Assembly (NCBI RefSeq): GCF_000179575.2 | Contig: NC_015636.1 | Location: 434,001 to 498,000 of the forward strand | DNA length: 64,000 nucleotides | DNA from: Methanothermococcus okinawensis IH1 | Lineage (GTDB): Archaea > AGJL01 > Methanococci > Methanococcales > Methanococcaceae | Direction: 5' to 3' | Shown here: positions 8,085 to 34,912 of the stretch, piece after piece | Numbering within the stretch: position 1 is the stretch's first letter | Layout of the letters: every line of letters starts with the position of its first letter | Notes under the pieces: model-generated | Databases searched by the model: none | What the model was told of the DNA's origin: nothing | The model's input: only the letters and a program-made list of their open reading frames with translations | Position numbers and translations under genes: made by a program

Positions 8085-8177
8085 TAAGAAATAGATGTTT
8101 AGGTATTAAAATCGAATTTTATATCTCTTATTTTTTAAATAATTTTTCTAAGAATGATGTTTTTATTGGGTGATTAT

Positions 8178-11549: not shown

Positions 11550-11809
11550 AAATTAAATTTATTTTAAATAATTTTCTATTTAATTTAAATAGATATATAT
11601 ATAATAGTTTATGTATAATACATAACTATAAAAAAATGAAAAATTAATAAGGACATTAAGAAAATTTAAAGCACACTTAAAAACATTAATTAAAATAAGG
11701 TCGGCGATAATGAACATTTTAAGGGGATGTTCGGAGCCGACCTTGGCGATTATGAACCTAAATGGTTCTAGCCTATACTCTCTTAAAAACCAAAGGAGGC
11801 GAATAATTT
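11550..11809 (+). promoter_or_regulatory. Promoter and tandem-hairpin leader, + strand copy B
   Basis: Near-identical duplicate of 6940-7205, differing at only a few positions. Hairpins lie at 11699-11742 and 11745-11773, with the ribosome site GGAGGCGA at 11795-11802. Here the leader ends directly at the ATG of an unrelated protein without the cassette signal peptide, so the duplication boundary is at the start codon. Confidence 0.75.
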
Positions 11810-20222: not shown

Positions 20223-21326
20223 TTATTCATTTTTAAGTGCTTTTATAGGGTCTAATTTGGATGCTTTATATGCAGGATAAAGCGATGCGATTAATGATGT
20301 CCCAACGCCAAACAATATCCCAATTAATAAATAAATCATACAATACCATGTTAATGAAGATTTTAATAAAAACACCACGACCAAATATCCAATAGCCACA
20401 CTTATCAGAGCTCCGATTAAACTTCCAATGATTCCAAGTATAAGTGCCTCATAAAGGAACATAATCATTATATCGCTCTTAGAAGCTCCAATACTTTTCA
20501 TAACTCCAATCTCTTTTGTCCTTTCAATTGTGCTCATCAACATTACATTACCAATGCCTATCCCAGCAACCAATAAGGATATGCCCCCTATTCCCATTAA
20601 AAATAAGGATAATTTATCCATGGCATCATTTATAGATTTAAGAAGTGTGTCCATTGATAATACTATTACTTTCTTTTCTTTTTTATTCATAATACTTTCA
20701 GTTTTATTTTTAATATCGTTTATATCATCTTTATTTTTAACATACAATACAACCATTGAATAATTATTCCCATAAAATCTTTTGTAGGTTTTTTGAGATA
20801 AAATTATGGAATTTTGAGAGATTATAAAATATGAACTATTGTATATGCCTCTTATTCTAAATGAAACATTATTTATTGTTATCATACTGTCTTTATTAAC
20901 ATTATTAAGATTTGAAAAGACACTATCTACATAAACCGTTGTATCAGAGAGTTCATTATTAATTCCTAAATTTAAATATTTTATATCACCTTTGCCTATG
21001 CCATAAATTGAAGTATAAGTTTTTTTATTTTTTCCTTTGATATATACAATATCGCTTCTTGTGCATATTGGAATTACTTTGCAGTTTAGCCTTTTTAATT
21101 TATCAACATCCCTTTTTGTAAAATGCAAATAACCTTCCCCAGCATTAGGAAATACCACAACAAAATTTGCCACGCCTTCAAAATTCTTGGATATGCCTTG
21201 TTTTAATCCGCCACCCAATATGCCCAATGAGGATATAGCCATAACTCCAATAATTATACCTAAAAGTGCTAAAATACTCCTCAATGTATGTCTTTTTAAA
21301 TTCCTCTTAGCCATTTCAAAATACAT
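20223..21326 (-). CDS. ABC transporter permease (MacB/FtsX type)
   Basis: A 367-residue permease with one N-terminal helix (TLRSILALLGIIIGVMAISS), a periplasmic-type external domain of about 200 residues, and three C-terminal helices (LSLFLMGIGGISLLVAGIGI, then SIGASKSDIMIMFLYEALIL). This is the MacB/FtsX topology, a mechanotransmitter rather than a classical importer. The start is one base after the ATPase stop (TAATATG), preceded by GAGGAAT. As the last gene of the Yip1-exported protein-ATPase-permease operon downstream of five peptide cassettes, it resembles the accessory exporter of circular bacteriocin clusters; that link is inference. Confidence 0.9.
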   Translation of the reverse strand: MYFEMAKRNLKRHTLRSILALLGIIIGVMAISSLGILGGGLKQGISKNFEGVANFVVVFPNAGEGYLHFTKRDVDKLKRLNCKVIPICTRSDIVYIKGKNKKTYTSIYGIGKGDIKYLNLGINNELSDTTVYVDSVFSNLNNVNKDSMITINNVSFRIRGIYNSSYFIISQNSIILSQKTYKRFYGNNYSMVVLYVKNKDDINDIKNKTESIMNKKEKKVIVLSMDTLLKSINDAMDKLSLFLMGIGGISLLVAGIGIGNVMLMSTIERTKEIGVMKSIGASKSDIMIMFLYEALILGIIGSLIGALISVAIGYLVVVFLLKSSLTWYCMIYLLIGILFGVGTSLIASLYPAYKASKLDPIKALKNE

Positions 21327-21327
21327 A

Positions 21328-22005
21328 TTATTCCTCAACTAATTCTCCATCCCTAATATTTATTATCCTATCGGCAACCTTTCCAACATTTATATCGTGG
21401 GTAACCATAACAACCGTTTTTCCAGATTTGTTTAATTTTTTTAGGAGCTCCATAATTTTAGCACCAGTCTTTGAATCCAATGACCCTGTTGGTTCATCGC
21501 ATAATAAAATAGGTGGGTCATTTGCAAGAGCTCGTGCTATTGCCACCCTCTGTTGCTGACCCCCACTTAATTGATTGGGTTTGTGATTTGCAAATTTTTC
21601 ATCCAATTCAGCCATTTTTAAACATTCCAATGCTCTTTTTCGTTTTTCTTCCGAGCTCATATTACTTCGATATTTAAATATTAGGGGGAGCTCTACATTT
21701 TCTAATGCACTCAACAATGGAATAAGATTAAACTGTTGAAATACAAATCCAATTTTCATTCTCCTAATTTCCGTTAATTGGTTATCGTTTAAATCACTTG
21801 CTTTTACACTATCTATATATACCTCTCCATTATCTGGTCTATCCAAACAACCAATAATATTTAAAAGTGTAGATTTCCCACTTCCACTTGGTCCCATAAT
21901 TGAGACAAATTCTCCCTCTTCTATTCTTAGATTTACATTATTTAGTGCGTATATTACTTCTTCCCCCATTTTGTAGGATTTTACAACATTTTTTAATATA
22001 ATCAT
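21328..22005 (-). CDS. ABC transporter ATPase (LolD/MacB type)
   Basis: A 225-residue nucleotide-binding subunit. Walker A is GPSGSGKSTLLN near residue 38, the Q-loop FVFQQFNLIPLLSALENVELP, the signature LSGGQQQRVAIARAL, Walker B ILLCDEPTGSLD and the H-loop VMVTHD. The GCLDRPDNG motif and length are typical of the LolD/MacB group. It pairs with the permease directly downstream. Confidence 0.95.
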   Translation of the reverse strand: MIILKNVVKSYKMGEEVIYALNNVNLRIEEGEFVSIMGPSGSGKSTLLNIIGCLDRPDNGEVYIDSVKASDLNDNQLTEIRRMKIGFVFQQFNLIPLLSALENVELPLIFKYRSNMSSEEKRKRALECLKMAELDEKFANHKPNQLSGGQQQRVAIARALANDPPILLCDEPTGSLDSKTGAKIMELLKKLNKSGKTVVMVTHDINVGKVADRIINIRDGELVEE

Positions 22006-22026
22006 AATTCCCCTTTATTATTATTT

Positions 22027-23540
22027 TTATTCCTTTTTTCTTATAAATCCCCTATAAATTAAATAAATCACTCCAATACAAAATAAAAGACCTATTCCAA
22101 TAACTGCATAATTAATTCCCTCTTTTTTTCCATTATAATCATTATACGATACTACCTGACCATTATCTATTTTTATCTCCTTGTTTATTGTTATTAAATT
22201 GTTGTTTTCATCCCTGTATGTAATTACAATTGGAATTTCACTTACATTTCCATTTATCACACAGTGCAATTCAAAACTTCCATAATCATCTGCATTTAAT
22301 GTTCCTACAAAATAATTTTCGTATGGTCTTTTTGGGATAATATTCTTTGTTCTTTTAATGCTAACCAATACACTTTTTGCCTTGGTAGTTCCTATATTGG
22401 ATAAATCCCCAGTAATTGTTTTTTCGGTTATTCCCTCTATATTTATTCCAGTTAAAACTAAATCAGCCCTTCCTATAACATTTACAGAGATATTTTTATC
22501 CACTTCATTTCCATCAAAAATTATTTTTATGGGGATTTCTTTAACTCCTATCTCATTTACCTTTATTTTAAATGAAACATTTTTGGTTTTTCCATAAGGT
22601 ATAAAGATAGTTTTTTGATTATTTCCTAAATAATATTTTTCAATAGATATAATAAAATTAGCATCCTTGTAATTGTTTTTAGGGATAATGTGAAATTATT
22701 CACCTCTCCAACGGGATAAGTGTAGTTAATTACATTTAAATCAACGGCATTATCTGGAATTACTTTAAATACTAAATTTCCTTTCTCTTCAACAATTTTT
22801 TGATTTTTGTAGTTGTATGTGATTGTATTGGAATGCCCCTGTTCTGTTTCTGTTTTATCCATTAGTTGTAAATTATCATATGGATTATTATATGTTAGTT
22901 CATAGGGTAGTTTTAAAATACCATCTCCACTTGCATAAATTTTAATCTCCATCAATTTTGTTTGGTGTGGTTTTAAGCCGTCTATATAACCCTCCGATAA
23001 TGAAAAAATATTACTATTATCGTTGTTAAATTGCATCTTTATGTTTTTTGCTACCCCTGTTCCCTCATTTGTTATTTTTAAATAGATGGTATTTTCGCCT
23101 TCTTTTATTGTTGGTGGATTTTCAATTGTAAGTATTGGTTTTCCCCTAATTGGAATAGTAAATATTCTATTTTCTGAATGTTGTTTATTATCCTCTGTAT
23201 AGTTGCAATATGCCACAATTTTATAGTCCTTTGACGGAGTATTATCTTTAATTTTTATTATAAAATGACCTACTCCTTTTTCAGATGGAAATAATTGCCC
23301 CTCATAATCCTTTCCTTTAATTATTTGTATGTAATTCTTACTTTCCCCATAAGGATATATGCCTATTACGGTGTTGTTTATCTCCTTTTCTGGTGTGATT
23401 ACCACCCATAAATCATAGGTCTTTGATGGTTCCAAATATTGATTTTTATAGTCAATGCTTGTAAATTCCACTGCATCTATTGTGTTTAAAATTAAAAATA
23501 AAGATAAGATAGATAAAAAAATAAAAAAGGATTTTTTCAT
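22027..23540 (-). CDS. Exported COG1361-like transporter subunit, frameshifted
   Basis: Two frames (22626-23540 and 22027-22503, plus the open stretch between) make one protein of about 504 residues. A signal peptide (MKKSFFIFLSILSLFLIL) is followed by beta-sandwich domains like COG1361/NEW3 (VKITNEG-type strands, for example IYLKITNEGTGVAKNIKM) and a C-terminal helix YAVIGIGLLFCIGVIYLIYRG. The frame breaks in a five-base run at 22676-22680; one extra base restores NNYKDANFIIS and continuity. Such proteins often accompany MacB-type transporters in archaea and probably form the external adaptor. Confidence 0.75.
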
Positions 23541-23549
23541 TATTTCACC

Positions 23550-24203
23550 TTATAAGAACTTGACTACACTGTATAATTGATAAGCCCCAAATAATACTGT
23601 TGGAATTAGTGCAACTATAAATGCCTTTTTTAATTCCAAATTCCTTGCATATTTTATCCCATAAGTCCATAAACCTAAATTCCATAATGTAACGGCAATA
23701 CCTATTAAAAGGTTTGTATATACCATGGTTTTTGGAATTATCGAAGACATGACATGTTTTACTATTATTGGATTTTGAAGTTGCCCCATTGTTAATGGTT
23801 GAATATGAACATTTGAAAGAAAATAGTATCCAATTGGTATTGTTATACATAAAGCCAATAAATTTGGTAATAGTCCATAGCCTGTGAATTCAAAAGTTCT
23901 TTTAAAAGAACCCTCTCCTTTAAATGCTATTGAAATTATATGCATTATTCCAGCTATTAATAGCCATGCTATAAATCCACCTACAAAAGCAGATACTGCG
24001 GCAATTATAGTAGATATAGCCATCATATTTTGCATATCTGCTGGAAATATCTTAAACATTATCGATGTTGTGTAATATGTATATATGGCTGTTAATGCCG
24101 AAAATATAAGGACTATAAGGAATGGTGTTTTAAGAGATATTTCTTTATTGGATAGATTTTTGAAGAAGTTATTTGGATTTAGGATGAGCTCCGATAGGTT
24201 CAT
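23550..24203 (-). CDS. Yip1-domain membrane protein
   Basis: A 217-residue protein with a short cytoplasmic N-terminus (LILNPNNFFKNLSNKEISLK) followed by five hydrophobic helices, the Yip1 pattern. The GSFKRTFEFTGYGLLPNLLAL segment is typical. It is the first gene of the transporter operon, 10 bases before the exported subunit, and 71 bases after the last DUF95 gene. It likely assists the MacB-type complex; the substrate is not shown. Confidence 0.85.
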   Translation of the reverse strand: MNLSELILNPNNFFKNLSNKEISLKTPFLIVLIFSALTAIYTYYTTSIMFKIFPADMQNMMAISTIIAAVSAFVGGFIAWLLIAGIMHIISIAFKGEGSFKRTFEFTGYGLLPNLLALCITIPIGYYFLSNVHIQPLTMGQLQNPIIVKHVMSSIIPKTMVYTNLLIGIAVTLWNLGLWTYGIKYARNLELKKAFIVALIPTVLFGAYQLYSVVKFL

Positions 24204-24274: not shown

Positions 24275-24829
24275 TTATGTCAATAGATAATTTGCTATCT
24301 CTGGAGTTATATAAACCTCTACGAAAGCGGCTATAATTATTAATATTATTGAAATTAGAGCTAATTTTAAGAATTTTCTTATATCTTCTTCTGTTATTGG
24401 CTTTTCTTTCTTATCTCTTAAATATTGAACTATCTCGTATGGGATTTTAAAACCTGCAGCTCCAACAATAATAAATCCTGAAAATTCAAAAATTGCATGA
24501 GGTATAACATAAGCAACAATATCAATTATTTTTACATTTGAAAGTAATATTGGAATTGACAATCCATTAAAGAATAATGTATAAAATGTTAATAATCCAA
24601 AGGTTAGAGAACCTAACAAAAGTTTTAAACACACTTCTAAGTTATTTGTTAATATCAAAATAAATTCATCCAAATTTGATATTTTTTGATGTTTTAAAAG
24701 ATGATTATTATTTCCCAAATTTGAGTTGGTTGGTTGTTGATTGAGACATATTCCACATAATATACCAAATATTAAACATGATAGTGACATAAGTGTACAA
24801 AATTTGTTTTTAGTGATTATCAATACCAT
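24275..24829 (-). CDS. SpoIIM/DUF95 membrane protein, cassette 5
   Basis: A 184-residue SpoIIM/DUF95 protein with five helices. DUF95 proteins are a recurring part of circular bacteriocin clusters, where they are needed for production, secretion or immunity. The C-terminal half (AAGFKIPYEIVQYLRDKKEK, then ITEEDIRKFLKLAL and VEVYITPEIANYLLT) is nearly identical in six copies of this island. This copy is the most divergent in the middle (VIPHAIFEFSGFIIVGAA instead of the usual HGIFEIPAM). GAGGT precedes the chosen ATG. Confidence 0.85.
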   Translation of the reverse strand: MVLIITKNKFCTLMSLSCLIFGILCGICLNQQPTNSNLGNNNHLLKHQKISNLDEFILILTNNLEVCLKLLLGSLTFGLLTFYTLFFNGLSIPILLSNVKIIDIVAYVIPHAIFEFSGFIIVGAAGFKIPYEIVQYLRDKKEKPITEEDIRKFLKLALISIILIIIAAFVEVYITPEIANYLLT

Positions 24830-24866
24830 ATTATACCTCAACAAAAATTACTATTTGATACTATCC

Positions 24867-25289
24867 CTACATATAAAATACATATAAAATAATTGCTACA
24901 ACCGTTAATAAACTAGTAATAAAAATTATCCCTAAATTTTTTTTAAATTGAATCCTACTCGGAATTTCTCCATTTGAACTATTTTCTCCAACCTTAGATA
25001 AGGTATTACATAACATCATAACCATTGAATTCATCATTAAAATCAGTGCGGATATACTTATTATCCCATTTGCTCCAATTGGGTCATTTTCAGAAATCAT
25101 CCAACTAAGAATCCCCAATGCTATACACATCATTATAGTTATGCTCGAAAACATAAATATGCGACTTATAATAAAATGAAATGGCATGTTAATCCATTTT
25201 TTTTGCATATAATAAAATACGCATAACACGATACCAACAGCAATAAATGTTATTATTACTGTTGTATTAGGGTAATTCATTAAATCCAT
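24867..25289 (-). CDS. Small membrane protein, cassette 5
   Basis: A 140-residue protein with four hydrophobic helices (TVIITFIAVGIVLCVFYYM, IFMFSSITIMMCIALGIL, ISALILMMNSMVMMLC and LGIIFITSLLTVVAIILYVF). I start at the ATG directly after GGTGATAT. The corresponding gene differs in every cassette, like a peptide-specific immunity or processing factor; that role is inferred from position only. Confidence 0.6.
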   Translation of the reverse strand: MDLMNYPNTTVIITFIAVGIVLCVFYYMQKKWINMPFHFIISRIFMFSSITIMMCIALGILSWMISENDPIGANGIISISALILMMNSMVMMLCNTLSKVGENSSNGEIPSRIQFKKNLGIIFITSLLTVVAIILYVFYM

Positions 25290-25340
25290 TATATCACCAT
25301 TATACAAAATAAAAAAATAAAAAACTATTAAAATGGGTGA

Positions 25341-25661
25341 TTAGCTCATTAAAACCACTGCACTTACCGAACTTGATACGCCAGCAGCAAATACTATTGC
25401 ACCAATGCCTGATACAATAGAAGGGGCAGTAAATATCGATATTGTTGTCCCTGCAAGAGCCATATATTGTAATTTTCCCATAAGTCTGTCATACTCGTTT
25501 TTGGTTATTTTTCCCTCATCATACAATTTTTGAGTATATGCTCCAATTTTTTCGCCTGATATTGTACTAGTTCCAGATACTGCAGTAGATGTAGCAAACA
25601 CAGCTCCTACCATACACAGCATAGCAATAGCAGCGAAACCTTTAAGTAGGTTTAATTTCAT
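25341..25661 (-). CDS. Bacteriocin-like secreted peptide, cassette 5
   Basis: A 106-residue precursor with the shared signal sequence (MKLNLLKGFAA, then MLCMVGAVFA) and predicted cleavage after residue 23. The mature part of about 83 residues begins with a Ser/Thr-rich stretch, then SGEKIGAYTQKLYDEGK, and ends in a very hydrophobic Ala/Val/Ser segment (GAIVFAAGVSSSVSAVVLMS). It is the largest and most charged peptide of the set. Strong ribosome site GGAGGTGA. Confidence 0.75.
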   Translation of the reverse strand: MKLNLLKGFAAIAMLCMVGAVFATSTAVSGTSTISGEKIGAYTQKLYDEGKITKNEYDRLMGKLQYMALAGTTISIFTAPSIVSGIGAIVFAAGVSSSVSAVVLMS

Positions 25662-25945
25662 AATGTATTCACCTCCTTTATGGTGGTTAAGTTTATTAGT
25701 CTTTAGCTCCGAACCTACAAAGGTTCATCATCGCCAGGGTCGGCTCCGAATAGTTCCCACCTATTCATCATCGCCGACTTTTCATTTTTCTTTAATATTT
25801 TTAAACAATTATTTAATAATGTTTTTAATATCACAATTAATTTTTACTTTTTTCGTAATTATTGTATATGCAAAACTACTATATATATATATTATGATTT
25901 GAATTAAATAGAAAATTATTTAAATTAAACTTAACTGTTATTAAC
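25662..25945 (-). promoter_or_regulatory. Cassette 5 promoter and tandem kink-turn leader
   Basis: Read on the - strand: an AT box with ATTTTCTATTTAATTC, a TATATATATATAT element, then hairpin 1 (25738-25778; stem GGTCGGC/GCCGACT-like) and hairpin 2 (25705-25735). Each has the kink-turn core GGC-GAT-GA on one side and C-GGA-GC on the other. Hairpin 1 has an upper stem GAATAG/CTATTC, different from cassettes 2-4, so the stem is conserved while the sequence changes. Hairpin 2 closes with G.U. A CCACC stretch could pair with the GGAGG ribosome site. Confidence 0.8.
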
Positions 25946-26485
25946 CTATGTTAATAGATAATTAGCAATTTTTGGAGTTATATAAAGCTCTATAAAAGCA
26001 GCTATAACTATTAATATTATTGAAATTAGAGCTAATTTTAAGAATTCTTTTATATCATCTTCTGTTATTGGCTTTTCTTTCTTATCTAAGAGATAAAGAG
26101 TTATTCCATAAGGTATTTTAAAACCTGCTACTGCCGATATAAGCATTGCTGGAATTTCGAAGATGCCATGTGGAAGGATTAAAGCAGTTATTAATTTTAA
26201 CGGTTCATTAGTTTGGAAAGTGGAACCAATTAATATGCCAACATTAAAACCATTAAATATTAAATTTATAAAAGTAGAAAAACCAAAGGTTATTGCTCCT
26301 GCTAACATTAGAAAAATAACTTTTAAGTTGTTTAATAGGATTGTAGGAAAGTTGAATTTTATATTTAACTTTTGATTTATTTCCTCCCCATTGTAGTTTT
26401 TTGAGAAGTCGTTTATAAAAATAAAGCCCGATATGAAACCTATTGAGAAGATTAAGATTGTTAATATTGGAGCTGGTAGTTTCAT
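25946..26485 (-). CDS. SpoIIM/DUF95 membrane protein, cassette 4
   Basis: A 179-residue copy. Its N-terminal half (INDFSKNYNGEEINQKLNIK) is shared with the copies of cassette 1 and of the orphan upstream unit, but not with cassettes 2, 3 and 5. In the conserved C-terminal half it alone reads PYGITLYLLDKKEKPITEDD in place of PYEVIQYLRDKKEK. This mosaic pattern suggests recombination among copies. Confidence 0.85.
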   Translation of the reverse strand: MKLPAPILTILIFSIGFISGFIFINDFSKNYNGEEINQKLNIKFNFPTILLNNLKVIFLMLAGAITFGFSTFINLIFNGFNVGILIGSTFQTNEPLKLITALILPHGIFEIPAMLISAVAGFKIPYGITLYLLDKKEKPITEDDIKEFLKLALISIILIVIAAFIELYITPKIANYLLT

Positions 26486-26542
26486 GGTTTCACAGTTATT
26501 ATGTTCATTTTGGAGTTATAGTTTTATAAAATCAAAATTAAG

Positions 26543-26890
26543 TTAGTTATAATAATGTTTAATAATAAACATCATACTAATAGTATAAATTGAAACCGCA
26601 GAGATTAAAAACATGGGTGTTATTAAGAGTTTGATATTTATTGGATATTTTATCAAAATAATACCAAGAGCAATACTAAATATTAAAATCACAAAATTCA
26701 TCCATAATATACAATCAAAATATGTTTTTTTGCCTACATGAGGAATAATATAGAGGCTAAATATCCGTTTTTTTATAATTTTTATATTTTTTTCTTTTGG
26801 TTGTTCATATGCATTTATAAAGTTTCTAAAAGCCCCTAAAATTATAAAAAATATTGCGAATAACAAAATATAATCCATTAAACTTAGCAT
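26543..26890 (-). CDS. Small membrane protein, cassette 4
   Basis: A 115-residue protein with an N-terminal helix (MDYILLFAIFFIILGAF), a basic loop (EQPKEKNIKIIKKR) and two or three further helices. A relic with only its first 16 and last few codons lies at 34531-34699. Site AGGGTGT precedes the ATG. Function unknown; position suggests a cassette-specific partner of the peptide. Confidence 0.6.
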   Translation of the reverse strand: MLSLMDYILLFAIFFIILGAFRNFINAYEQPKEKNIKIIKKRIFSLYIIPHVGKKTYFDCILWMNFVILIFSIALGIILIKYPINIKLLITPMFLISAVSIYTISMMFIIKHYYN

Positions 26891-26942
26891 AATAACACCC
26901 TATATCATAAAATTAAAAAATATAAAAATTAGGTTAACGTGT

Positions 26943-27242
26943 TTAAGCTAAGACAGCAAGTGTTGCTCCAGCAAGTGCAGGCCCAGAAACTCCAACTGCT
27001 GCAATAGTTCCAATGGCATATAGATAAGTAGCATCCCCTAAAGCTGCAGCACCTGCTCCATAAACTCCCCCAATTAGTCCCATGTATTCGCCAAACTTAT
27101 TAACAGAAGTATTTCCTGTAGCATCGCCATAAATGTATGCTGCAGCTCCAATATCTCCTGTGCTTATTGGTTCAGCAAACACAGCTCCTACCATACAGAG
27201 CATAGCTACAGCAGCGAAACCTTTAAGTAAGTTTAGCTTCAT
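26943..27242 (-). CDS. Bacteriocin-like secreted peptide, cassette 4
   Basis: A 99-residue precursor; signal cleavage predicted after residue 23 (AVFA-EP). The mature peptide of about 76 residues is Gly/Ala-rich and starts EPISTGDIGAAAYIYGDATG, ending with a hydrophobic Ala/Val stretch (VGVSGPALAGATLAVLA). Size, hydrophobicity and Ala/Gly content resemble circular bacteriocins. The start EPISTGDI is identical to that of cassette 2, though the rest differs. Confidence 0.75.
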   Translation of the reverse strand: MKLNLLKGFAAVAMLCMVGAVFAEPISTGDIGAAAYIYGDATGNTSVNKFGEYMGLIGGVYGAGAAALGDATYLYAIGTIAAVGVSGPALAGATLAVLA

Positions 27243-27517
27243 AATATATTCACCTCCTTTATGGTGGTTAAGTTCATTAGTCTTCGGCTCCTAACCTACA
27301 AAGGTTCATCACAGCCAAAAGGTTGGCTCCGAACATTCCCCCAAATGTTCATCATCGCCGACCTTTTTATTTTCCATTAAATTATTTAATGAGTATTTTA
27401 ATATTGTAATTAATTTCCATTTTTTTCATAATTATTGTATATGCAAAACCCTATATATACATATTATGATTTGAATTAAATAGAAAATTATTTAAATTAA
27501 ACTTAACTGTTATTAAC
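27243..27517 (-). promoter_or_regulatory. Cassette 4 promoter and tandem kink-turn leader
   Basis: Hairpin 1 lies at 27321-27363, upper stem GAACATT-type with a loop rich in G, and hairpin 2 at 27286-27316. In hairpin 2 the three-base bulge is TGT instead of GAT, yet the GA and GGA strands of the kink-turn are kept. Promoter and AT box as in the other cassettes. The leader ends in GGAGGTGA before the ATG. Confidence 0.8.
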
Positions 27518-28042
27518 CTATGTTAATAGATAATTAGCAATTTTTGGAGTTATATAAACCTCTACGAAAGCGGCTATAATTATTAATATTATTGAAATTA
27601 GAGCTAATTTTAAGAATCCTTTTATATCTTCCTCTGTTATTGGCTTTTCTTTCTTATCTCTTAGATACTGAATTACTTCATACGGTATTTTAAAACCTGC
27701 TACTGCTGATATAAGCATTGCTGGAATTTCGAAGATGCCATGTGGAAGTACTGTTATAACCACAAAAAACCAATTTTTTATTAAAGCTAATGCCTTGTAT
27801 TGAATTGCTAGTGCAAATCCATTATATAATAAATTACACATTATAGGAACTAAAAAAATACCACCTATTAAATTATAAAATACTATTTTAATGTTATTAA
27901 ACAAAATTCCAGAAAATGAATATGTTGGTAAAACATCGCATGAGTTTATGGAGGTACTTTTGAATGTGTCAAGCGGTATGAATGAGCCATAAATAAACCC
28001 TATTATAAATAATACAATAGGTAATGTTTTATATATTTTCAT
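27518..28042 (-). CDS. SpoIIM/DUF95 membrane protein, cassette 3
   Basis: A 174-residue copy. Residues from about 95 to the end match the other copies (LPHGIFEIPAMLISAVAGF onwards), while the first 90 (MKIYKTLPIVLFIIGFIYG, then SFSGILFNNIKIVFYNLIGG) are unlike any of the others. It starts 12 bases after the stop of the membrane gene upstream. Confidence 0.85.
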   Translation of the reverse strand: MKIYKTLPIVLFIIGFIYGSFIPLDTFKSTSINSCDVLPTYSFSGILFNNIKIVFYNLIGGIFLVPIMCNLLYNGFALAIQYKALALIKNWFFVVITVLPHGIFEIPAMLISAVAGFKIPYEVIQYLRDKKEKPITEEDIKGFLKLALISIILIIIAAFVEVYITPKIANYLLT

Positions 28043-28054
28043 AGTATTCCACTC

Positions 28055-28510
28055 TTAAATATTTTTAATAAATATTTTTAACACATTGTAGCCCATAGAA
28101 AAACAAACTCCTCCTCCATAACTTAATATAGATATCAAAATCATGCTTTCTGTCTGTTTATATGTCATTGGAAATATGATTAAATATTTAATAACTAATG
28201 CTGAGAATATAACAATTAATGGAAATAAAAATAAAATTATTTTAAAAAACTTCTCTAAGTTATTTTTTTCAAATATAACATAATTAACATCTTTATTTAT
28301 TAAATACTTTGAAGAATAAAGTCCAATTACTATACCAATTGCAACGAACATTGTTGAAATACTAAATATATTTTTTAATAAGGCCCAACCATAATTTAAC
28401 CAGAAATTAAAAACAAGTATGGGAACTATCCATAATAATATGCCTTCAATCATTAAACCTATTCCAACAATACATGGATTGTTTATATATGTGTGTGTAA
28501 TATCTTTCAT
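28055..28510 (-). CDS. Small membrane protein, cassette 3
   Basis: A 151-residue protein with four helices (IVGIGLMIEGILLWIVPILV, IFSISTMFVAIGIVIGLY, FFKIILFLFPLIVIFSALVI and MILISILSYGGGVCFSMGY). Start at the ATG following GGTGATATTT. Not similar to its counterparts in the other cassettes by eye. Function unknown. Confidence 0.6.
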   Translation of the reverse strand: MKDITHTYINNPCIVGIGLMIEGILLWIVPILVFNFWLNYGWALLKNIFSISTMFVAIGIVIGLYSSKYLINKDVNYVIFEKNNLEKFFKIILFLFPLIVIFSALVIKYLIIFPMTYKQTESMILISILSYGGGVCFSMGYNVLKIFIKNI

Positions 28511-28549
28511 AAATATCACCAAAAAATAAAATTAAAATAAATATGCGTA

Positions 28550-28858
28550 TTATAAAGCAATTCCACCTATTACCATAGGTATTCCAACAACAGCACCCAC
28601 CCCTGTAGAGCATGCAGCAACGCCACCTGTTATTAAAGCACCTGCGACTATTATATGTTCTGGAGCTAAAAACGCATTTACCCCAAATAATGCCTTTCCA
28701 GCGGTGGAACCATGATACGCTTCATCAGCACTGTGTGCGAGTTCATATCCTGTATATGCTGAATTAAGGATGGAAGGTGTAGCAAACACAGCTCCTACCA
28801 TACACAGCATAGCAATAGCAGCGAAACCTTTAAGTATGTTTCCTTTCAATATATTCAT
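28550..28858 (-). CDS. Bacteriocin-like secreted peptide, cassette 3
   Basis: A 102-residue precursor whose signal is slightly longer because NILKG is repeated (MNILKGNILKGFAAIAM). Predicted cleavage after residue 26 leaves about 76 residues: TPSILNSAYTGYELAHSAD, a His/Asp-containing middle, then a Gly/Val/Ala-rich tail with one cysteine (GGVAACSTGVGAVVGIPMVI). This peptide lacks the GDIG start motif of cassettes 1, 2 and 4. Confidence 0.72.
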   Translation of the reverse strand: MNILKGNILKGFAAIAMLCMVGAVFATPSILNSAYTGYELAHSADEAYHGSTAGKALFGVNAFLAPEHIIVAGALITGGVAACSTGVGAVVGIPMVIGGIAL

Positions 28859-29097
28859 TCTGTCACCTCTTATGGTGATTTAATTGGTAGATTTTGTAGG
28901 TCGGCTCCGAACATTCCTTCAAATGTTCATCATCGCCGACCTTTTTTATTTTCCATTAAATTATTTAATGAGTATTTTAATATTGTAATTAATTTCCATT
29001 TTTTTCGTAATTATTGTATATGCAAAACTACTATATATATATATTATGATTTGAATTAAATAGAAAATTATTTAAATTAAACTTAACTGTTATTAAC
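28859..29097 (-). promoter_or_regulatory. Cassette 3 promoter and single kink-turn leader
   Basis: Only hairpin 1 is present (28899-28941), with the full kink-turn core; hairpin 2 has been lost and replaced by a short spacer. Downstream TCACC can pair perfectly with GGTGA of the ribosome site (TCACCATAAGAGGTGA), a different pairing from the CCACC/GGAGG of other cassettes, which supports a conserved ribosome-site hairpin. Promoter and AT box as in the other cassettes. Confidence 0.75.
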
Positions 29098-29652
29098 CTA
29101 TGTTAATAGATAATTAGCAATTTTTGGAGTTATATAAACCTCTACGAAAGCGGCTATAATTATTAATATTATTGAAATTAGAGCTAATTTTAAGAATTCT
29201 TTTATATCATCTTCTGTTATTGGCTTTTCTTTCTTATCTCTTAGATACTGAATTACTTCATACGGTATTTTAAAACCTGCTACTGCTGATATAAGCATTG
29301 CTGGAATTTCGAAGATGCCATGTGGAAGGATTAAAGCCAATATTAATTTTATAGGCACTCCAGAATTATATGCATTAGAAATTAACATTCCTAAACTAAA
29401 ACCATTAAATATTAAGTTTATAAAGGTAGAAAAACCAAAGGTTATTGCTCCTGCCAACATTAGAAAGATAACTTTTAGATTATTTGATAATATAATACAA
29501 AATGAACTTTTTAAAATTAATATATTTTGATATATGTTTACTGATTCAAATTTAGATTGTGGCAATGATAAAAAACCAAATAATATCCCAATTAGATAAA
29601 TACCCAGAGACATTATACAACAATATGACTTATAGTTTTTTAAAATATTCAT
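29098..29652 (-). CDS. SpoIIM/DUF95 membrane protein, cassette 2
   Basis: A 184-residue copy. The first 55 residues (MNILKNYKSYCCIMSLGIYL and on) are unique; the middle (NLKVIFLMLAGAITFGFSTF) matches cassette 4 and the C-terminal half is the common one. It starts 10 bases after the gene upstream, so the two are co-transcribed. Confidence 0.85.
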   Translation of the reverse strand: MNILKNYKSYCCIMSLGIYLIGILFGFLSLPQSKFESVNIYQNILILKSSFCIILSNNLKVIFLMLAGAITFGFSTFINLIFNGFSLGMLISNAYNSGVPIKLILALILPHGIFEIPAMLISAVAGFKIPYEVIQYLRDKKEKPITEDDIKEFLKLALISIILIIIAAFVEVYITPKIANYLLT

Positions 29653-29662
29653 ACTATCATCT

Positions 29663-30250
29663 TTATACCAATATTACGGCAATGTTTCCATATTTATCTT
29701 CCAGCTTCTTGGCGTATTCTATAATATCTTTTTTTTCATAAGAATAACTTTTTTCAGCCAATTTTTTAAGAGGAGCGTATCTAAAAAATTTATCAGCTGA
29801 ATTTTCTTTTTTAAGAATTACTCGCAATACAAAATCTATCGGTAACATTAATAAAGTAATAAGCATTCCGATAATAAGCACAAACGAGCCTAAATATTCT
29901 CCATATCTTTTTAAGATATCATGCACTGGGGCAGATGTATTTAATGGTTTATTATATATCTCCACATTAAACTCTTGGTTTTCTAAATTTTGTTTATACT
30001 TATTTATGTTATTTACCACGGTTGTGTATATTTTCTCATAATGAGGATATAATTTTTTATCCAACATATTACTTGGTTTTGAGGTTGTTATTTTTTTATA
30101 TGTGTCATATTTACTATTTGCAATTAAAATTGCATTAATACCCTCAGTTTTAATTGTGGTTATTATTTTTTCCATACTTGCTTCTAAATACTTTTGTTCT
30201 TCTGAAATATCATAAATTTTAGTTGTTTTTGGATAATATATTTTAATCAT
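29663..30250 (-). CDS. Cassette 2 partner: soluble N-domain plus two helices
   Basis: A 195-residue protein unlike the other cassette partners. Residues 1-115 are soluble and charged (MIKIYYPKTTKIYDISEEQK onward), followed by two hydrophobic helices (LGSFVLIIGMLITLLML and an adjoining segment) and a cytoplasmic tail ending EYAKKLEDKYGNIAVILV. I start at the ATG preceded by GGAGGCGG. No family recognised. Position suggests a peptide-specific immunity or processing role. Confidence 0.6.
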   Translation of the reverse strand: MIKIYYPKTTKIYDISEEQKYLEASMEKIITTIKTEGINAILIANSKYDTYKKITTSKPSNMLDKKLYPHYEKIYTTVVNNINKYKQNLENQEFNVEIYNKPLNTSAPVHDILKRYGEYLGSFVLIIGMLITLLMLPIDFVLRVILKKENSADKFFRYAPLKKLAEKSYSYEKKDIIEYAKKLEDKYGNIAVILV

Positions 30251-30344
30251 AACATATACCGCCTCCAAAAAAATTAAAAAAGATAAATTATTATATTTAT
30301 TGTAAGCTATAATATTCGCCCTATTGAAATTTTAATTATATGGG

Positions 30345-30413
30345 AAGGATTAAATTCATAATATCAAGTGTTGATATTTTTAAAGAATGTGCAAAGTGAC
30401 CCCTACCAATTTA
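30345..30413. mobile_element. Degenerate half copy of the MITE
   Basis: The stretch GATTAAATT ... AGTGTTGATATTTTTAAAG ... GTGCAAAGTGACCCCTA matches the right half of the 117-bp element at 6701-6817 with several differences; the left half and its terminal repeat are missing. It lies between the cassette 2 peptide and its partner gene. Confidence 0.6.
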
Positions 30414-30415
30414 CT

Positions 30416-30646
30416 TTATAATAATAGGGCTAATTTAGCATATGCTAAAGGACCTGCTGGTGGAACATCTATCCCATAATTCAATGCAATCGTTGCGAGC
30501 TCAGCATATGATGGATTTTCGTCAAGGTAGGAAGCAGCCATTAGTCCTAAACTAATATCTCCTGTGCTTATTGGTTCAGCAAACACAGCTCCTACCATAC
30601 AGAGCATAGCCACAGCAGCGAAACCTTTAAGTAAGTTTAGCTTCAT
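30416..30646 (-). CDS. Bacteriocin-like secreted peptide, cassette 2
   Basis: The shortest precursor, 76 residues, with cleavage predicted after residue 23; the mature part is about 53 residues: EPISTGDISLGLMAASYLDE, then a mainly helical Ala/Leu-rich remainder ending PAGPLAYAKLALLL. The end may have been altered by the half MITE that begins (in this reading direction) just after the stop. Confidence 0.7.
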   Translation of the reverse strand: MKLNLLKGFAAVAMLCMVGAVFAEPISTGDISLGLMAASYLDENPSYAELATIALNYGIDVPPAGPLAYAKLALLL

Positions 30647-30929
30647 AATATATTCACCTCCTTTATGGTGGTTAAGTTCATTAGTCTTCGGCTCCTAACC
30701 TACAAAGGTTCATCACAGCCAAAAGGTTGGCTCCGAACATTCCTTCAAATGTTCATCATCGCCGACCTTTTTTATTTTCCATTAAATTATTTAATGAGTA
30801 TTTTAATATTGTAATTAATTTCCATTTTTTTCGTAATTATTGTATATGCAAAACTACTATATATATATATATATATTATGATTTGAATTAAATAGAAAAT
30901 TATTTAAATTAAACTTAACTGTTATTAAC
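30647..30929 (-). promoter_or_regulatory. Cassette 2 promoter and tandem kink-turn leader
   Basis: Hairpin 1 at 30725-30767 and hairpin 2 at 30690-30720, with the TGT bulge variant in hairpin 2 as in cassette 4. Hairpin 1 has a C.A mismatch in the lower stem (GCCAACC). The TATA run is longer than elsewhere (about nine TA repeats), which shows slippage among copies. Confidence 0.8.
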
Positions 30930-31484
30930 CTATGTTAATAGATAATTAGCAATTTTTGGAGTTATATAAACCTCTACGAAAGCGGCTATAATTATTAATA
31001 TTATTGAAATTAGAGCTAATTTTAAGAATCCTTTTATATCTTCCTCTGTTATTGGCTTTTCTTTCTTATCTCTTAGATACTGAATTACTTCATACGGTAT
31101 TTTAAAACCTGCTACTGCTGATATAAGCATTGCTGGAATTTCGAAGATGCCATGTGGAAGGATTAAAGCAGTTATTAATTTTAACGGTTCATTAGTTTGA
31201 AAAGTAGAGCCGATTAAAACCCCAACATTAAAACCATTAAATATTAAGTTTATAAAAGTAGAAAAACCGAAAGTAATAGAACCAGCCAACATTAAAAAGA
31301 TAACTTTTAAGTTGTTTAGTAGAATTGTAGGAAAGTTGAATTTTATATTTAACTTTTGATTTATTTCTTCCCCATTGTAGTTTTTTGAGAAGTCGTTTAT
31401 GAATGTAATGCCTGATATGAAACCTGTTAAAAAGATTGAGATTGTTAATATTAATAACAGTGATAATTTACTTTCAGTTCTCAT
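30930..31484 (-). CDS. SpoIIM/DUF95 membrane protein, cassette 1
   Basis: A 184-residue copy. After a unique start (MRTESKLSLLLILTISIFL) it matches the cassette 4 and orphan copies through INDFSKNYNGEEINQKLN and the middle, then the common C-terminus. GGTGGT directly precedes the ATG. Confidence 0.85.
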   Translation of the reverse strand: MRTESKLSLLLILTISIFLTGFISGITFINDFSKNYNGEEINQKLNIKFNFPTILLNNLKVIFLMLAGSITFGFSTFINLIFNGFNVGVLIGSTFQTNEPLKLITALILPHGIFEIPAMLISAVAGFKIPYEVIQYLRDKKEKPITEEDIKGFLKLALISIILIIIAAFVEVYITPKIANYLLT

Positions 31485-31526
31485 ACCACCACATTTTTAT
31501 TCTCATTAATAGTTAAATTTAGGTTA

Positions 31527-31814
31527 TTAATTATTACTACCTCTCTTCTTTTTGGATTTTTTGTATTTAGCAATAATACTAAATGTAATTATTAACATCA
31601 CAAATATCATTAAAAACACACTAGATGTAAAAAAATCTACTCGATATACTATACTAACTATAAATCCCAATATCAAATAGATTTTAACAAATATCCATAA
31701 AAATGACATGGAAAATAGCGCTTCCCTAATTCTCCCTGTTTGTTTTTCCCCCATTAAATATAAATAATACTCAGGAAATAAGATATGATATATATATTGA
31801 TTATTAATTTTCAT
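31527..31814 (-). CDS. Small membrane protein, cassette 1
   Basis: A 95-residue basic protein with three hydrophobic segments (MSFLWIFVKIYLILGFIV, SSVFLMIFVMLIITFSII and a weak first one) and a lysine-rich tail (AKYKKSKKKRGSNN). Such small basic membrane proteins with a charged tail are typical of bacteriocin immunity proteins in size and character, but no homology is visible. Confidence 0.58.
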   Translation of the reverse strand: MKINNQYIYHILFPEYYLYLMGEKQTGRIREALFSMSFLWIFVKIYLILGFIVSIVYRVDFFTSSVFLMIFVMLIITFSIIAKYKKSKKKRGSNN

Positions 31815-31900
31815 ATCAATCACACCATTAGTATTTTTAATTAAAGTATTTTTTAAATTAAATCAAAAAATAAAAATTAATAAAATTAATGTAAAAAGAT

Positions 31901-32173
31901 TTACATAGCAATTCCTAAACATACCCAAAAAGTACCTCCTGTTGCTATTCCAGCACCAACTATTCCTGCATAAAGAGCGGCTGTTCCCACTCCTACCTCA
32001 AATCCTGCTTTTGCTCCATGAACTATTGGATGATTATTTGCATTATCTGCAGCTGCACAATATCCATATAATGCACCGCCAATATCTCCCAAAGCCACTG
32101 GTGTAGCAAACACAGCTCCTACCATACACAGCATAGCAATAGCAGCGAAACCTTTAAGTAGGTTCAATTTCAT
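31901..32173 (-). CDS. Bacteriocin-like secreted peptide, cassette 1
   Basis: A 90-residue precursor; cleavage after residue 23 gives about 67 residues: TPVALGDIGGALYGYCAAAD, then an His-containing middle, then GFEVGVGTAALYAGIVGAGI and a tail with one cysteine. Two cysteines in the mature part would allow a disulfide bond. Size and Gly/Ala-rich helices match circular bacteriocins of 58-70 residues best among the five. Confidence 0.75.
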   Translation of the reverse strand: MKLNLLKGFAAIAMLCMVGAVFATPVALGDIGGALYGYCAAADNANNHPIVHGAKAGFEVGVGTAALYAGIVGAGIATGGTFWVCLGIAM

Positions 32174-32452
32174 AGTTTATTCACCTCCTTTATGGTGGTT
32201 AAGTTCATTAGTCTTCGGCTCCGAACCTACAAAGGTTCATCATCGCCAAGGTCGGCTCCGAATAGTTCCCACCTATTCATCATCGCCGACCTTTTTTCAT
32301 TTTTCTTTAATATTTTTAAATAGTGATTTAATATTTTATTTAATATCACAATTAATTTCCATTTTTTTCGTAATTATTATATGCAAAACCCCTATATATA
32401 TCAATTTGAATTAAATAGAAAATTATTTAAATTAAACTTAACTGTTATTAAC
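32174..32452 (-). promoter_or_regulatory. Cassette 1 promoter and tandem kink-turn leader
   Basis: The best-preserved leader. Hairpin 1 (32250-32291) has GGTCGGC, GAT bulge, GA, upper stem TGAATAG/CTATTC, then GGA and GCCGACC. Hairpin 2 (32217-32247) has GGC, GAT, GA, TGAACC/GGTTC, GGA, GCC. Both show the Kt-7-like arrangement of a three-base bulge followed by tandem G.A pairs. Only two bases separate them. Ribosome site GGAGGTGA at 32181-32188. Confidence 0.82.
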
Positions 32453-32992
32453 CTATGTTAATAGATAATTAGCTATTTCTGGAGTTATATAAACCTCTAT
32501 AAAAGCAGCTATAACTATTAATATTATTGAAATTAATGCTAATTTTAAGAATTCTTTTATATCATCTTCTGTTATTGGCTTTTCTTTCTTATCTCTTAGA
32601 TATTGAATTACTTCATAAGGTATTTTAAAACCTGCTACTGCTGATATTAACATTGCTGGAATTTCAAATATGCCGTGTGGAAGTATTAAAGCGGTTATTA
32701 ATTTTAATGATTCATTAGTTTGAAAAGTAGAGCCGATTAAAACCCCAACATTAAAACCATTAAATATTAGATTTATAAAAGTAGAAAAACCAAAGGTGAT
32801 AGAACCAACCAACATTAGAAAGATAACTTTTAAGTTGTTTAATAAGATTGTAGGAAAGTTGAATTTTATATTTAACTTTTGATTTATTTCTTCTCCTTTG
32901 TAGTTTTTTGAAAAGTCGTTTATGAATGTAATGCCTGAGATAAAACCTATTGAAAAGATTAAGATTGTTAATATTGATGGTAGTTTTTTCAT
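32453..32992 (-). CDS. SpoIIM/DUF95 membrane protein, orphan unit
   Basis: A 179-residue copy closely similar to cassettes 1 and 4, at the upstream end of the array. I use the ATG after TGTGAAACC, the same start context as in cassette 4, so the gene begins 4 bases after the upstream stop. No secreted peptide with the common signal precedes this unit, so it is an orphan or decayed cassette. Confidence 0.85.
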   Translation of the reverse strand: MKKLPSILTILIFSIGFISGITFINDFSKNYKGEEINQKLNIKFNFPTILLNNLKVIFLMLVGSITFGFSTFINLIFNGFNVGVLIGSTFQTNESLKLITALILPHGIFEIPAMLISAVAGFKIPYEVIQYLRDKKEKPITEDDIKEFLKLALISIILIVIAAFIEVYITPEIANYLLT

Positions 32993-32996
32993 GGTT

Positions 32997-33416
32997 TCAC
33001 ACAAAATATATGTCCCTCTTAATACCATAAATTAAATAAAATGATGCCAATATCCCCCCTGCAAAACCTACAAAAAATGATAATGGTAAATAATTAATTA
33101 CCTTAAAATAATCAAATACATTTTGAATTAACCAATCAGCTACATTAACAAAAATAACTACAACTATTAAATATATTTTTAATAAATTTATATTTTCCAA
33201 TAATTTTTCATCTAATTTTAATAATTTAATAACGATAATGTTGATTATTACCCCAGAAATTATTAATACAGTGTTTAAGATAATATTGGTTATATTCGTT
33301 AGTTCATAATACACCTGCAATGTTATTACAAAATAAGATAACAGTATGAATAAAACACCAATTAAGGAAATAAATCCAATATATTTTTTATTTATTTCTT
33401 TATTTTCAACATACAT
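32997..33416 (-). CDS. Membrane protein of orphan unit
   Basis: A 139-residue protein with four helices (IGFISLIGVLFILLSYFVIT, IILNTVLIISGVIINIIVI, LIVVVIFVNVADWLI and FFVGFAGGILASFYLIYG). It occupies the position of the cassette partner genes, directly before a DUF95 gene. Function unknown. Confidence 0.6.
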   Translation of the reverse strand: MYVENKEINKKYIGFISLIGVLFILLSYFVITLQVYYELTNITNIILNTVLIISGVIINIIVIKLLKLDEKLLENINLLKIYLIVVVIFVNVADWLIQNVFDYFKVINYLPLSFFVGFAGGILASFYLIYGIKRDIYFV

Positions 33417-33535: not shown

Positions 33536-33712
33536 TCAAAATCCCATCCATCCTACACCTAAAAATAAAAATCCCATTAAGATAAAATATTTTATTCCAT
33601 TTTCCAACATCATATATAATGGAATTCCAAATATTAAACCACCAATAAACCCAACTAACATAGATATAAATACAAAATTTGCCGATTCTTTTGTATCTTT
33701 GATTATCAACAT
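33536..33712 (-). CDS. Small membrane protein, 58 residues
   Basis: Short ORF beginning MLIIKDTKESANFVFIS, then two helices (MLVGFIGGLIFGIPLYMML and YFILMGFLFLGVGW). The frame is open upstream for some codons to a stop near 33751, so it could be the remainder of a longer gene. No clear ribosome site. Confidence 0.35.
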   Translation of the reverse strand: MLIIKDTKESANFVFISMLVGFIGGLIFGIPLYMMLENGIKYFILMGFLFLGVGWMGF

Positions 33713-33743: not shown

Positions 33744-33980
33744 CTAAATGTCTAATATCTTATCGATAAATATATATCCCAATATAGCTCCAAATCCAAA
33801 ATTACCTAAATTACTTTGCACCAATAAATAAATAGGAAACTTATGAAATAATGGTATTATAAGATATAACATGCCTGCTATAATTGACATGGCAATTGGT
33901 AATAAAATTATGCATCCCGTAATTTCAAAATTTAGATTTTTCATGCATTTATCTCCATATTCATTGTTGTTTATTTTCAT
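33744..33980 (-). CDS. Small membrane protein, 78 residues
   Basis: Two or three hydrophobic helices (GCIILLPIAMSIIAGMLYLI and FGFGAILGYIFIDKI). Two starts are plausible: the first ATG after GGCGATATT, or the internal ATG (MKNLNFE) after GGAGAT. Part of the run of small membrane genes upstream of the cassettes. No family recognised. Confidence 0.45.
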   Translation of the reverse strand: MKINNNEYGDKCMKNLNFEITGCIILLPIAMSIIAGMLYLIIPLFHKFPIYLLVQSNLGNFGFGAILGYIFIDKILDI

Positions 33981-34036: not shown

Positions 34037-34369
34037 TTAAAGCTTATTTAGGTTTTTTTCAAATAATTGAATCTTTACCATATAATTAACCAAAAACCCG
34101 ATTAGAATGCCGAAAAATAAGTAAAATATTTTATATAACTGGTTTATATTTGTTAATAGCATGTATCCATACATTAAGATAATTACTAAAATAAACATAA
34201 CAAATTCAACAGATATTTTTTCTTTGGTATTAAAATTTTCTTCTAAATAATGAAGAGATTTTAAAAAACTAACTTTTTTATTTCTATTTAAAATTACCCA
34301 ATTAACAAACCATGGCACTATTAATGCGTATATTGTTATAAAAATGGTAATAATAATCCAACTATCCAT
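34037..34369 (-). CDS. Membrane protein, 110 residues, decayed cassette promoter
   Basis: Begins MDSWIIITIFITIYALIVPW and has three further helices (FVMFILVIILMYGYML, KIFYLFFGILIGFLVNYMV). The 190 bases upstream (34379-34570) resemble the cassette promoter region (AAATAAC/ATTTT box, TATATACC, then TTTTGCATAT-like and GAAAAAAATG segments) but contain no kink-turn hairpin and no signal peptide. I read it as the first gene of a decayed cassette. Confidence 0.5.
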   Translation of the reverse strand: MDSWIIITIFITIYALIVPWFVNWVILNRNKKVSFLKSLHYLEENFNTKEKISVEFVMFILVIILMYGYMLLTNINQLYKIFYLFFGILIGFLVNYMVKIQLFEKNLNKL

Positions 34370-34530
34370 CTTTATCAACCTATACTGATTAAAAAAATAT
34401 TAAATAAGAATATTTTAAGTTTTAATATTCCACCAATTTTTCATTTTTTTCATAATTAATATATGTAAAACTGGTATATATTTTTTATGTTTTAATTAAA
34501 AAAATGTTATTTAAGTATAATTAACAGGAT

Positions 34531-34699
34531 TTATCTATTATTAAACTTAGTTAATAGGAATTAGCACTTTGAAAATATGAACTATGAAGTTAAAAAAATT
34601 AAACCATTAATTAATTTTTATAATTTATTTCTAATAATAAACATCATACACTATAAAAAATATTGCGAATAATAAGATATAATCCATTAAATTTAGCAT
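34531..34699 (-). pseudogene. Relic of a cassette-4-type unit
   Basis: The frame MLNLMDYILLFAIFFI matches the start of the cassette 4 partner protein (MLSLMDYILLFAIFFI), then jumps to its last codons and stops. About 80 bases further, AGTTAATAGG and TTAGCAC resemble the 3' end of the DUF95 genes. An internal deletion has removed nearly the whole unit. Confidence 0.55.
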
Positions 34700-34732
34700 A
34701 AATACACCTCAAAAATAAATAAGTTAAGATTG

Positions 34733-34912
34733 TTATTTATTTTTTAAAAAAAATTTAATAAAAAGTAGTGTTATATCAATAAAAATCATAATAAATAACA
34801 ATCCGTTAATAAATAATTTATACGGAGCTCCTATATTATACATTAAAATAAGAAGTATTCCAAATAATATACACCAAATAAGCCTATAATTGCTATATTT
34901 TTTATCTTTCAT
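34733..34912 (-). CDS. Small membrane protein, 59 residues
   Basis: An ORF starting MKDKKYSNYRLIWCILFG with two helices (LIWCILFGILLILMYNIG and FINGLLFIMIFIDITLLFI) and a basic end. GTGATAT precedes the ATG. It is the outermost gene of the membrane-protein island and contains one of the few GAGCTC sites there. Function unknown. Confidence 0.45.
   Translation of the reverse strand: MKDKKYSNYRLIWCILFGILLILMYNIGAPYKLFINGLLFIMIFIDITLLFIKFFLKNK

Follow-up and report, generated by a model that had tools for sequence, protein, structure and literature searches.

The window analysed here, a 64,000-nucleotide stretch of the Methanothermococcus okinawensis IH1 chromosome (contig NC_015636.1, positions 434,001 to 498,000; chromosome length 1662525 bases), carries on the minus strand, at 24275-33416, an array of five tandem cassettes, each comprising genes for a small peptide precursor, a different small membrane protein and a SpoIIM/DUF95 membrane protein of family PF01944 (all coordinates are in the table below). 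A preliminary description of this DNA, made from its letters alone, had recognized these five units, likened them to circular bacteriocin clusters and considered the multi-cassette arrangement new. The units are as described, with one correction: the SpoIIM genes number six, one more than the full cassettes, the sixth standing at the upstream end beside a membrane protein gene that no peptide gene accompanies. Five of the SpoIIM proteins, scanned against profiles as that description had proposed, match PF01944 at E 2e-26 to 8e-35, the family that also holds AS-48C of the AS-48 circular bacteriocin cluster (hhalign E 1.8e-6), while the SpoIIM of cassette 5 was assigned by alignment with these five. 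Long repeats run through the array (224-300 nt at 72-98% identity, far above chance expectation), which reaches past 33416 to two further orphan homologues of the cassette membrane proteins, and the next genes after it on the same strand, at 20223-24203, encode a Yip1 protein, an exported protein, a LolD-type ATPase and a MacB-type permease.

All five precursors begin with a near-identical leader of 23-26 residues, MKLNLLKGFAA(I/V)AMLCMVGAVFA with one longer variant, followed by mature parts (cores) unlike one another, which measure 83, 76, 76, 53 and 67 residues in P1 to P5, agreeing with the range of 53-83 given earlier, and which have a mean hydropathy of 0.40-0.83. Global alignments of these short sequences among the window paralogues separate constant from variable parts, the leaders being 83-100% and the SpoIIM C termini 70-96% identical, against 21-48% for the cores and 15-31% for the small membrane proteins. 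The same boundary is visible in the DNA of P2 and P4, where identity of 93-100% extends across the upstream sequence and the leader and then falls to 43-60%. Across the family, SpoIIM conserves the pattern NG...PH..E, found also in AS-48C. As read from the sequence, the layout is that of a constant part, presumably for export, joined to a variable payload.

Cores and small membrane proteins vary in step. Among 34 cassettes, which yield 65 pairs with similar cores, every pair with similar small membrane proteins also has similar cores (13/13), compared with a mean of 1.5 and a maximum of 7 when the core-partner assignment was permuted in 2000 trials, and this suggests that a core and its neighbouring small membrane protein form a cognate pair, a toxin candidate with its partner. 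Partner-like genes also stand without a peptide: three lie in the window and six in another locus, L072, where one is 65% identical to the partner of P3, and genome-wide searches found partner homologues paired with a peptide in some genomes and unpaired in others. Such orphans are the pattern of putative immunity genes retained against the toxins of neighbours. The orphan region of the window further holds, at 34652-34708, a fragment 91% identical to the start of the predicted P2 immunity gene (26843-26899), likely the leftover of a lost cassette, and two more small membrane proteins (33536-33712 and 33744-33980) for which the compared cassette proteins offered no homologue.

The unit that varies appears also to be the unit that travels. 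Comparison of the P1 cassette with its counterpart in another species (L079) gives a dS of 0.47 for both the leader and SpoIIM, but 0.10 for the core and 0.04 for the partner, with a dN/dS of 1.2-1.4 in the core (Nei-Gojobori estimates on short segments, with wide error, as are those that follow); because core and partner lie so far below their flanks, it follows that they moved jointly, and more recently than the flanks. The P2 core shares 76% identity with a core from another family, where the leader of the genome concerned is 39% identical, with dS of 0.45 in the core, 0.36 in the partner and 1.65, near saturation, in the leader. Between a cassette of the Archaeoglobi type, on a contig filed in an Arcobacter metagenome-assembled genome, and a Methanotorris-like one (L082), the cores are 65% identical, the partners related (27%) and the leaders unrelated (19%).

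One or two elements of the form GGC-GAU-GA-stem-NGA-GCC stand ahead of most peptide genes whose upstream region is intact, among them all five of the window; the 3-nt bulge, tandem G.A pairs, GGC/GCC outer stem and covarying stems of these elements are those of box C/D-type kink-turns. Stem covariation is 0.358, against 0.132 +/- 0.017 in shuffles, and 91.7% of alignment cells are paired, against 20-42% when the alignment is slid. Placed by coordinate comparison with leader-profile matches, the 53 strong sites that covariance model R1 finds in 36 genomes (E < 1e-5) lie nearly all directly upstream of leader genes, the exceptions being 11698-11743, before a gene without a leader, one site where a contig ends and another that precedes a broken leader. 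Weaker matches in genomes G004 and G007 were rejected as new members, being the box C/D RNA sR39 (RF01122); since the model also finds sR39, the motif type is confirmed as box C/D. Rfam contains no family matching the leader RNA in the array region, and the kink-turn was not found in the scanned loci of Archaeoglobi and Thermococci. The ribosome-site motif is mostly paired in the predicted local structure of 25 of 35 leaders, a prediction that is weak at the expected high growth temperatures. L7Ae binds kink-turns in archaeal mRNA leaders and thereby regulates translation (PMC5539422, PMC6298567); by analogy, it may bind these leaders and control their translation, although here the kink-turn, which likewise lies in the 5' untranslated region, does not cover the ribosome site but sits upstream of it, is often in tandem and followed by a separate hairpin, and precedes a putative toxin gene instead of l7ae.

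Similar front ends occur elsewhere in the window. A kink-turn at 7094-7139 and a signal-like leader front a 292-aa exported protein (7206-8084), followed by a small membrane protein (8154-8582), and leader proteins of 241-387 aa like this product occur in L122-L125; a second, larger payload class may thus use the same kink-turn and leader. The site at 11698-11743 is a near-identical duplicate of the 7094 kink-turn leader, placed before 11810-12172 (continuing as 12163-12645), a gene without the peptide leader that has a relative in L128.

The operon beside the array was identified correctly in the preliminary description as to its Yip1, ATPase (ABC_tran) and permease (MacB_PCD/FtsX) genes; the gene for the exported protein, however, is split near 22680 by the loss of one nucleotide relative to a copy at about 745 kb on the same chromosome (L067 3095-4609) that is otherwise identical over 1522 bases, which would reflect either a sequencing error or a recent inactivation. 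That second locus also contains a sixth peptide, a SpoIIM and a Yip1-like protein. Bacillus YknWXYZ has the same four kinds of gene in the same order (Yip1 protein, exported protein, ATPase, MacB permease), but the archaeal Yip1 protein matches the YknW family at E 2e-8 with a score of 34, under the family cut-off of 110 bits, and the archaeal exported protein resembles CARDB, with no adaptor-family match. Neither the Yip1 protein nor the exported protein matched AS-48E or AS-48F when compared, and one-to-one homology with AS-48 EFGH was dropped for both; the ATPase corresponds to the accessory transporter rather than to AS-48D.

Many hyperthermophilic Methanococcales carry homologous arrays. 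Searches of 36 genomes of the order with the SpoIIM and leader profiles recovered arrays holding between one and six units, spread over several genera that belong to two families, with no leader match in genus g2, presumably Methanococcus, and no array in many related genomes. In 18 Methanococcales loci the architecture recurs, with n units of peptide, membrane protein and SpoIIM followed by Yip1, exported protein, ATPase and permease; a leader profile recognizes 39 leader proteins among these loci and the array portion of the window, including an exported protein of 270 aa. Scanning of named genomes brought in Archaeoglobi and Thermococci, where the three-gene unit persists with different leaders, and a search of viral contigs found no relatives of the cassettes. 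The arrangement is not new as such: in the portions of their work that we compared, Makarova and colleagues (PMC4158269, PMC5898192) describe three- or four-gene DUF95/arCOG01996 cassettes in Methanococci, Archaeoglobi and Thermococci, with SpoIIM, small diverged membrane proteins and a SalXY-type ABC transporter, the same kind of locus as ours, and in 2014 took them to be probably a defence system, close to a transporter of antimicrobial peptides. In those portions of the 2014 and 2015 accounts, the leader/core structure, the cognate pairing, the orphans, the kink-turn leader and the exchange of modules do not appear; a survey of archaeal antimicrobial peptides by Makarova et al. (mBio, 2019), outside this comparison, may already list these loci as candidates and may have anticipated the bacteriocin interpretation.

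In our view the array is likely to be a bank of toxin-immunity cassettes of a bacteriocin-like kind. In such a bank, the constant signal-like leader would be removed from each precursor and the variable, hydrophobic, mostly Gly/Ala-rich core secreted, probably to act on the membranes of related archaea, with the adjoining small membrane protein as the cognate immunity protein. SpoIIM/DUF95 would mature or export the core and might join its two ends, the head-to-tail closure presumed for bacterial circular bacteriocins, and the Yip1-exported-LolD-MacB operon, common to all cassettes, would pump the peptide out or protect the membrane. Core and immunity gene together would be the exchange unit, for which the leader and SpoIIM, alike in every cassette, could provide homologous arms when modules are swapped in, and immunity genes could stay as orphans once their peptide is lost. 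One or two kink-turns in each peptide message, likely bound by L7Ae and often joined by the ribosome-site hairpin, would probably hold translation down until it is needed. The organization recalls polymorphic toxin systems and their immunity banks, which likewise combine a constant export part, a variable toxic part and both cognate and orphan immunity genes, but which deploy large multidomain toxins with nuclease tips where the archaeal cassettes would use small peptides and SpoIIM.

Several observations weigh against this interpretation. AS-48 has a net charge of +6, but four of the five cores are mildly acidic, at -2 to -5. Cores gave no match to PF09221, PF12173 or TIGR03651 at E up to 1, and 16 cores none at E up to 10 / 5, while AS-48 itself, as a control, matches PF09221. 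The same kink-turn and leader also precede larger exported proteins (7206-8084; L122-L125), and the idea of the leader as a toxin-specific signal was rejected for that reason. Covariation can arise from co-inheritance of linked genes alone; the flanks, however, do not follow, and the orphan partners and the exchange of core with partner argue against co-inheritance as the whole explanation. Finally, the P3 cassette carries no signal of recent exchange (dS 0.31 in the core, 0.22 in the immunity gene, 0.40 in SpoIIM and 0.26 in the leader), so that without a flank contrast there the evidence rests mainly on P1 and the cross-family cases, and the proposed module exchange is supported for some cassettes, not all.

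Within the toxin-immunity interpretation, the peptides could be true circular bacteriocins of an archaeal branch, closed head to tail by a SpoIIM-dependent step, as the preliminary description would have it, or linear pore-forming archaeocins exported by general secretion, with SpoIIM helping only in export or immunity. The circular form is a possibility to which we give serious weight, if somewhat short of an even chance: every known cluster for a circular bacteriocin has a SpoIIM/DUF95 gene (PMC6131525), the bacterial cerecyclin cluster has Yip1 and ABC genes too, and the archaeal leaders fall inside the published range of 2-48 residues (PMC8534725), with cores that are hydrophobic and of 53-83 residues. 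The archaeal loci thus parallel the AS-48 and cerecyclin clusters in precursor, PF01944 SpoIIM, small predicted immunity protein, MacB-type ABC transporter and, for cerecyclin, Yip1; they differ in their archaeal host, in having as many as five complete cassettes, every one with a SpoIIM and a partner of its own, in the constant signal-like leader and in unrelated peptide sequences, and the circular-bacteriocin genome surveys that we compared do not mention archaea. Besides the missing profile match, the gene lists of the loci, when read through, showed neither a large membrane gene like AS-48B nor a second, AS-48D-like dedicated ATPase, no AS-48B homology search having been run, and two core models, all-helical with pLDDT of 44 (the P3 core, AlphaFold, discarded on that score) and 73, are not saposin-like with any confidence. 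Foldseek with the better model returned no significant match in the PDB, a list led by alpha-pore-forming toxins (E 0.4) and no circular bacteriocin, and was not used for function; designed Pizza repeat proteins, suggested over about 27 residues by a PDB sequence search with the core profile, were rejected, no single stretch exceeding the threshold. Membership of the circular bacteriocins is not established, since some of the features tested fail; the bacteriocin side of the earlier proposal stands on the covariation, the orphans, the segment exchange and the cerecyclin-like Yip1 and ABC genes, and the system, which we term circular-bacteriocin-like, probably works like a circular bacteriocin cluster. 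The linear form seems to us rather unlikely. Its leader would be the ordinary signal peptide that the leader resembles and that larger exported proteins also bear, and it fits the one core whose best, non-significant structural likeness is to alpha-pore-forming toxins, but SpoIIM is kept in nearly every cassette, with the pattern common to AS-48C, suggesting more than an accessory role.

Readings that dispense with toxins fare less well. The 2015 account, as far as we compared it, takes the arCOG01996 cassettes for a membrane-remodelling or vesicle-forming system (PMC5898192) with the small proteins as diverged structural partners, and both Yip1 and SpoIIM have membrane-remodelling relatives; this is improbable in our view, for it leaves unexplained the hypervariable peptide behind a constant leader, the covariation of core and partner, the orphan partners, the recent exchange of core with partner and the absence from many related genomes. 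Pheromone-like signals with matched membrane receptors, to which we give very little credence, would equally explain a secreted variable peptide that covaries with a membrane protein, and control by an RNA switch would be plausible for them. Yet the conserved unit has no sensor kinase or regulator, receptors orphaned of their ligand are less expected than orphan immunity genes, the precursors are large and hydrophobic, and SpoIIM and the YknWXYZ-like neighbours point to bacteriocins.

To our knowledge, archaeal peptide weapons come from very few families. Should the toxin-immunity interpretation hold, hyperthermophilic methanogens would possess large and rapidly changing arsenals of peptides, with cognate immunity and a visible mechanism of exchange, as well as a new class of targets for kink-turn control of translation, and would offer a heat-stable test system for the biochemical role of DUF95/SpoIIM. 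The boldest form of the proposal, an archaeal family of head-to-tail cyclised peptide toxins with swappable core-immunity cassettes, constant recombination arms and silencing by L7Ae-bound tandem kink-turns, common to methanogens of hot environments, Archaeoglobi and Thermococci, is tentative and on balance doubtful.

Table. Features of the cassette array, its message leaders and the adjoining operon (window coordinates).
Feature	Position	Strand	Evidence or relatives
Orphan immunity-like protein	34733..34912	-	48-59% identity to cassette proteins of L073 and L068
Orphan immunity-like protein	34037..34378	-	71% identity to cassette protein L083 8633-8989
Orphan immunity-like protein, no peptide gene before it	32997..33416	-	61% identity to cassette membrane protein L070 10527-10886
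Sixth SpoIIM, after orphan 32997..33416	32453..33028	-	PF01944 E 8e-35
Two kink-turns, 5' leader of P5	32212..32292	-	
Peptide P5 precursor, 90 aa (leader 23 + 67)	31901..32173	-	
Predicted immunity protein for P5, 98 aa, 2 hydrophobic helices	31527..31823	-	orphan homologue L072 15952-16155 at 44%
SpoIIM/DUF95, cassette 5	30930..31484	-	alignment
Two kink-turns, 5' leader of P4	30685..30768	-	
Short hairpin predicted to pair the Shine-Dalgarno (CACC/GGUG) before P4 (example)	30655..30671	-	
Peptide P4 precursor, 76 aa (leader 23 + 53)	30416..30646	-	
Predicted immunity protein for P4, 201 aa, one hydrophobic helix	29663..30268	-	related to L072 15442-15945
SpoIIM/DUF95, cassette 4	29098..29652	-	PF01944 E 5e-32
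One kink-turn, 5' leader of P3	28898..28942	-	
Peptide P3 precursor, 102 aa (leader 26 + 76)	28550..28858	-	
Predicted immunity protein for P3, 155 aa, 3 helices	28055..28522	-	homologues paired in G023, orphan in G007, broken in G014
SpoIIM/DUF95, cassette 3	27518..28042	-	PF01944 E 1e-27
Two kink-turns, 5' leader of P2	27281..27364	-	
Peptide P2 precursor, 99 aa (leader 23 + 76)	26943..27242	-	
Predicted immunity protein for P2, 115 aa, 3 helices	26543..26890	-	
SpoIIM/DUF95, cassette 2	25946..26485	-	PF01944 E 1e-33
Two kink-turns, 5' leader of P1	25706..25780	-	
Peptide P1 precursor, 106 aa (leader 23 + 83)	25341..25661	-	
Predicted immunity protein for P1, 146 aa, 4 helices	24867..25307	-	
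SpoIIM/DUF95, cassette 1	24275..24844	-	PF01944 E 2e-26
Yip1-domain membrane protein (YknW-like), first gene of the operon	23550..24203	-	Yip1 E 1e-27
Exported CARDB-like protein, ~504 aa in relatives; frameshift near 22680 in the window	22027..23540	-	
LolD/MacB-type ABC ATPase	21328..22005	-	ABC_tran E 2e-37
MacB/FtsX-type permease (MacB_PCD/FtsX)	20223..21338	-	30% identity to AS-48H

Other genes accompany the cassettes in some of the compared loci. Toxin-antitoxin pairs judged by eye to be HicAB-like or VapBC-like lie between or after cassettes (L070 9824-10271, L074 10068-10515, L082 7907-8354; in L097 and L100 after SpoIIM). Two loci filed as bacterial, L092 from an Arcobacter metagenome-assembled genome (MAG) and L100 from a Desulfurellaceae MAG, carry cassettes of the Archaeoglobi type and are probably binning errors. 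The arrays of L071 (6961-8043), L073 (924-2042) and L077 (13530-14627 and 17211-18320) contain inserted genes resembling archaeal ATPases (MKFFNREKEINEIL...); these genes sometimes adjoin SpoIIM fragments and may be mobile.

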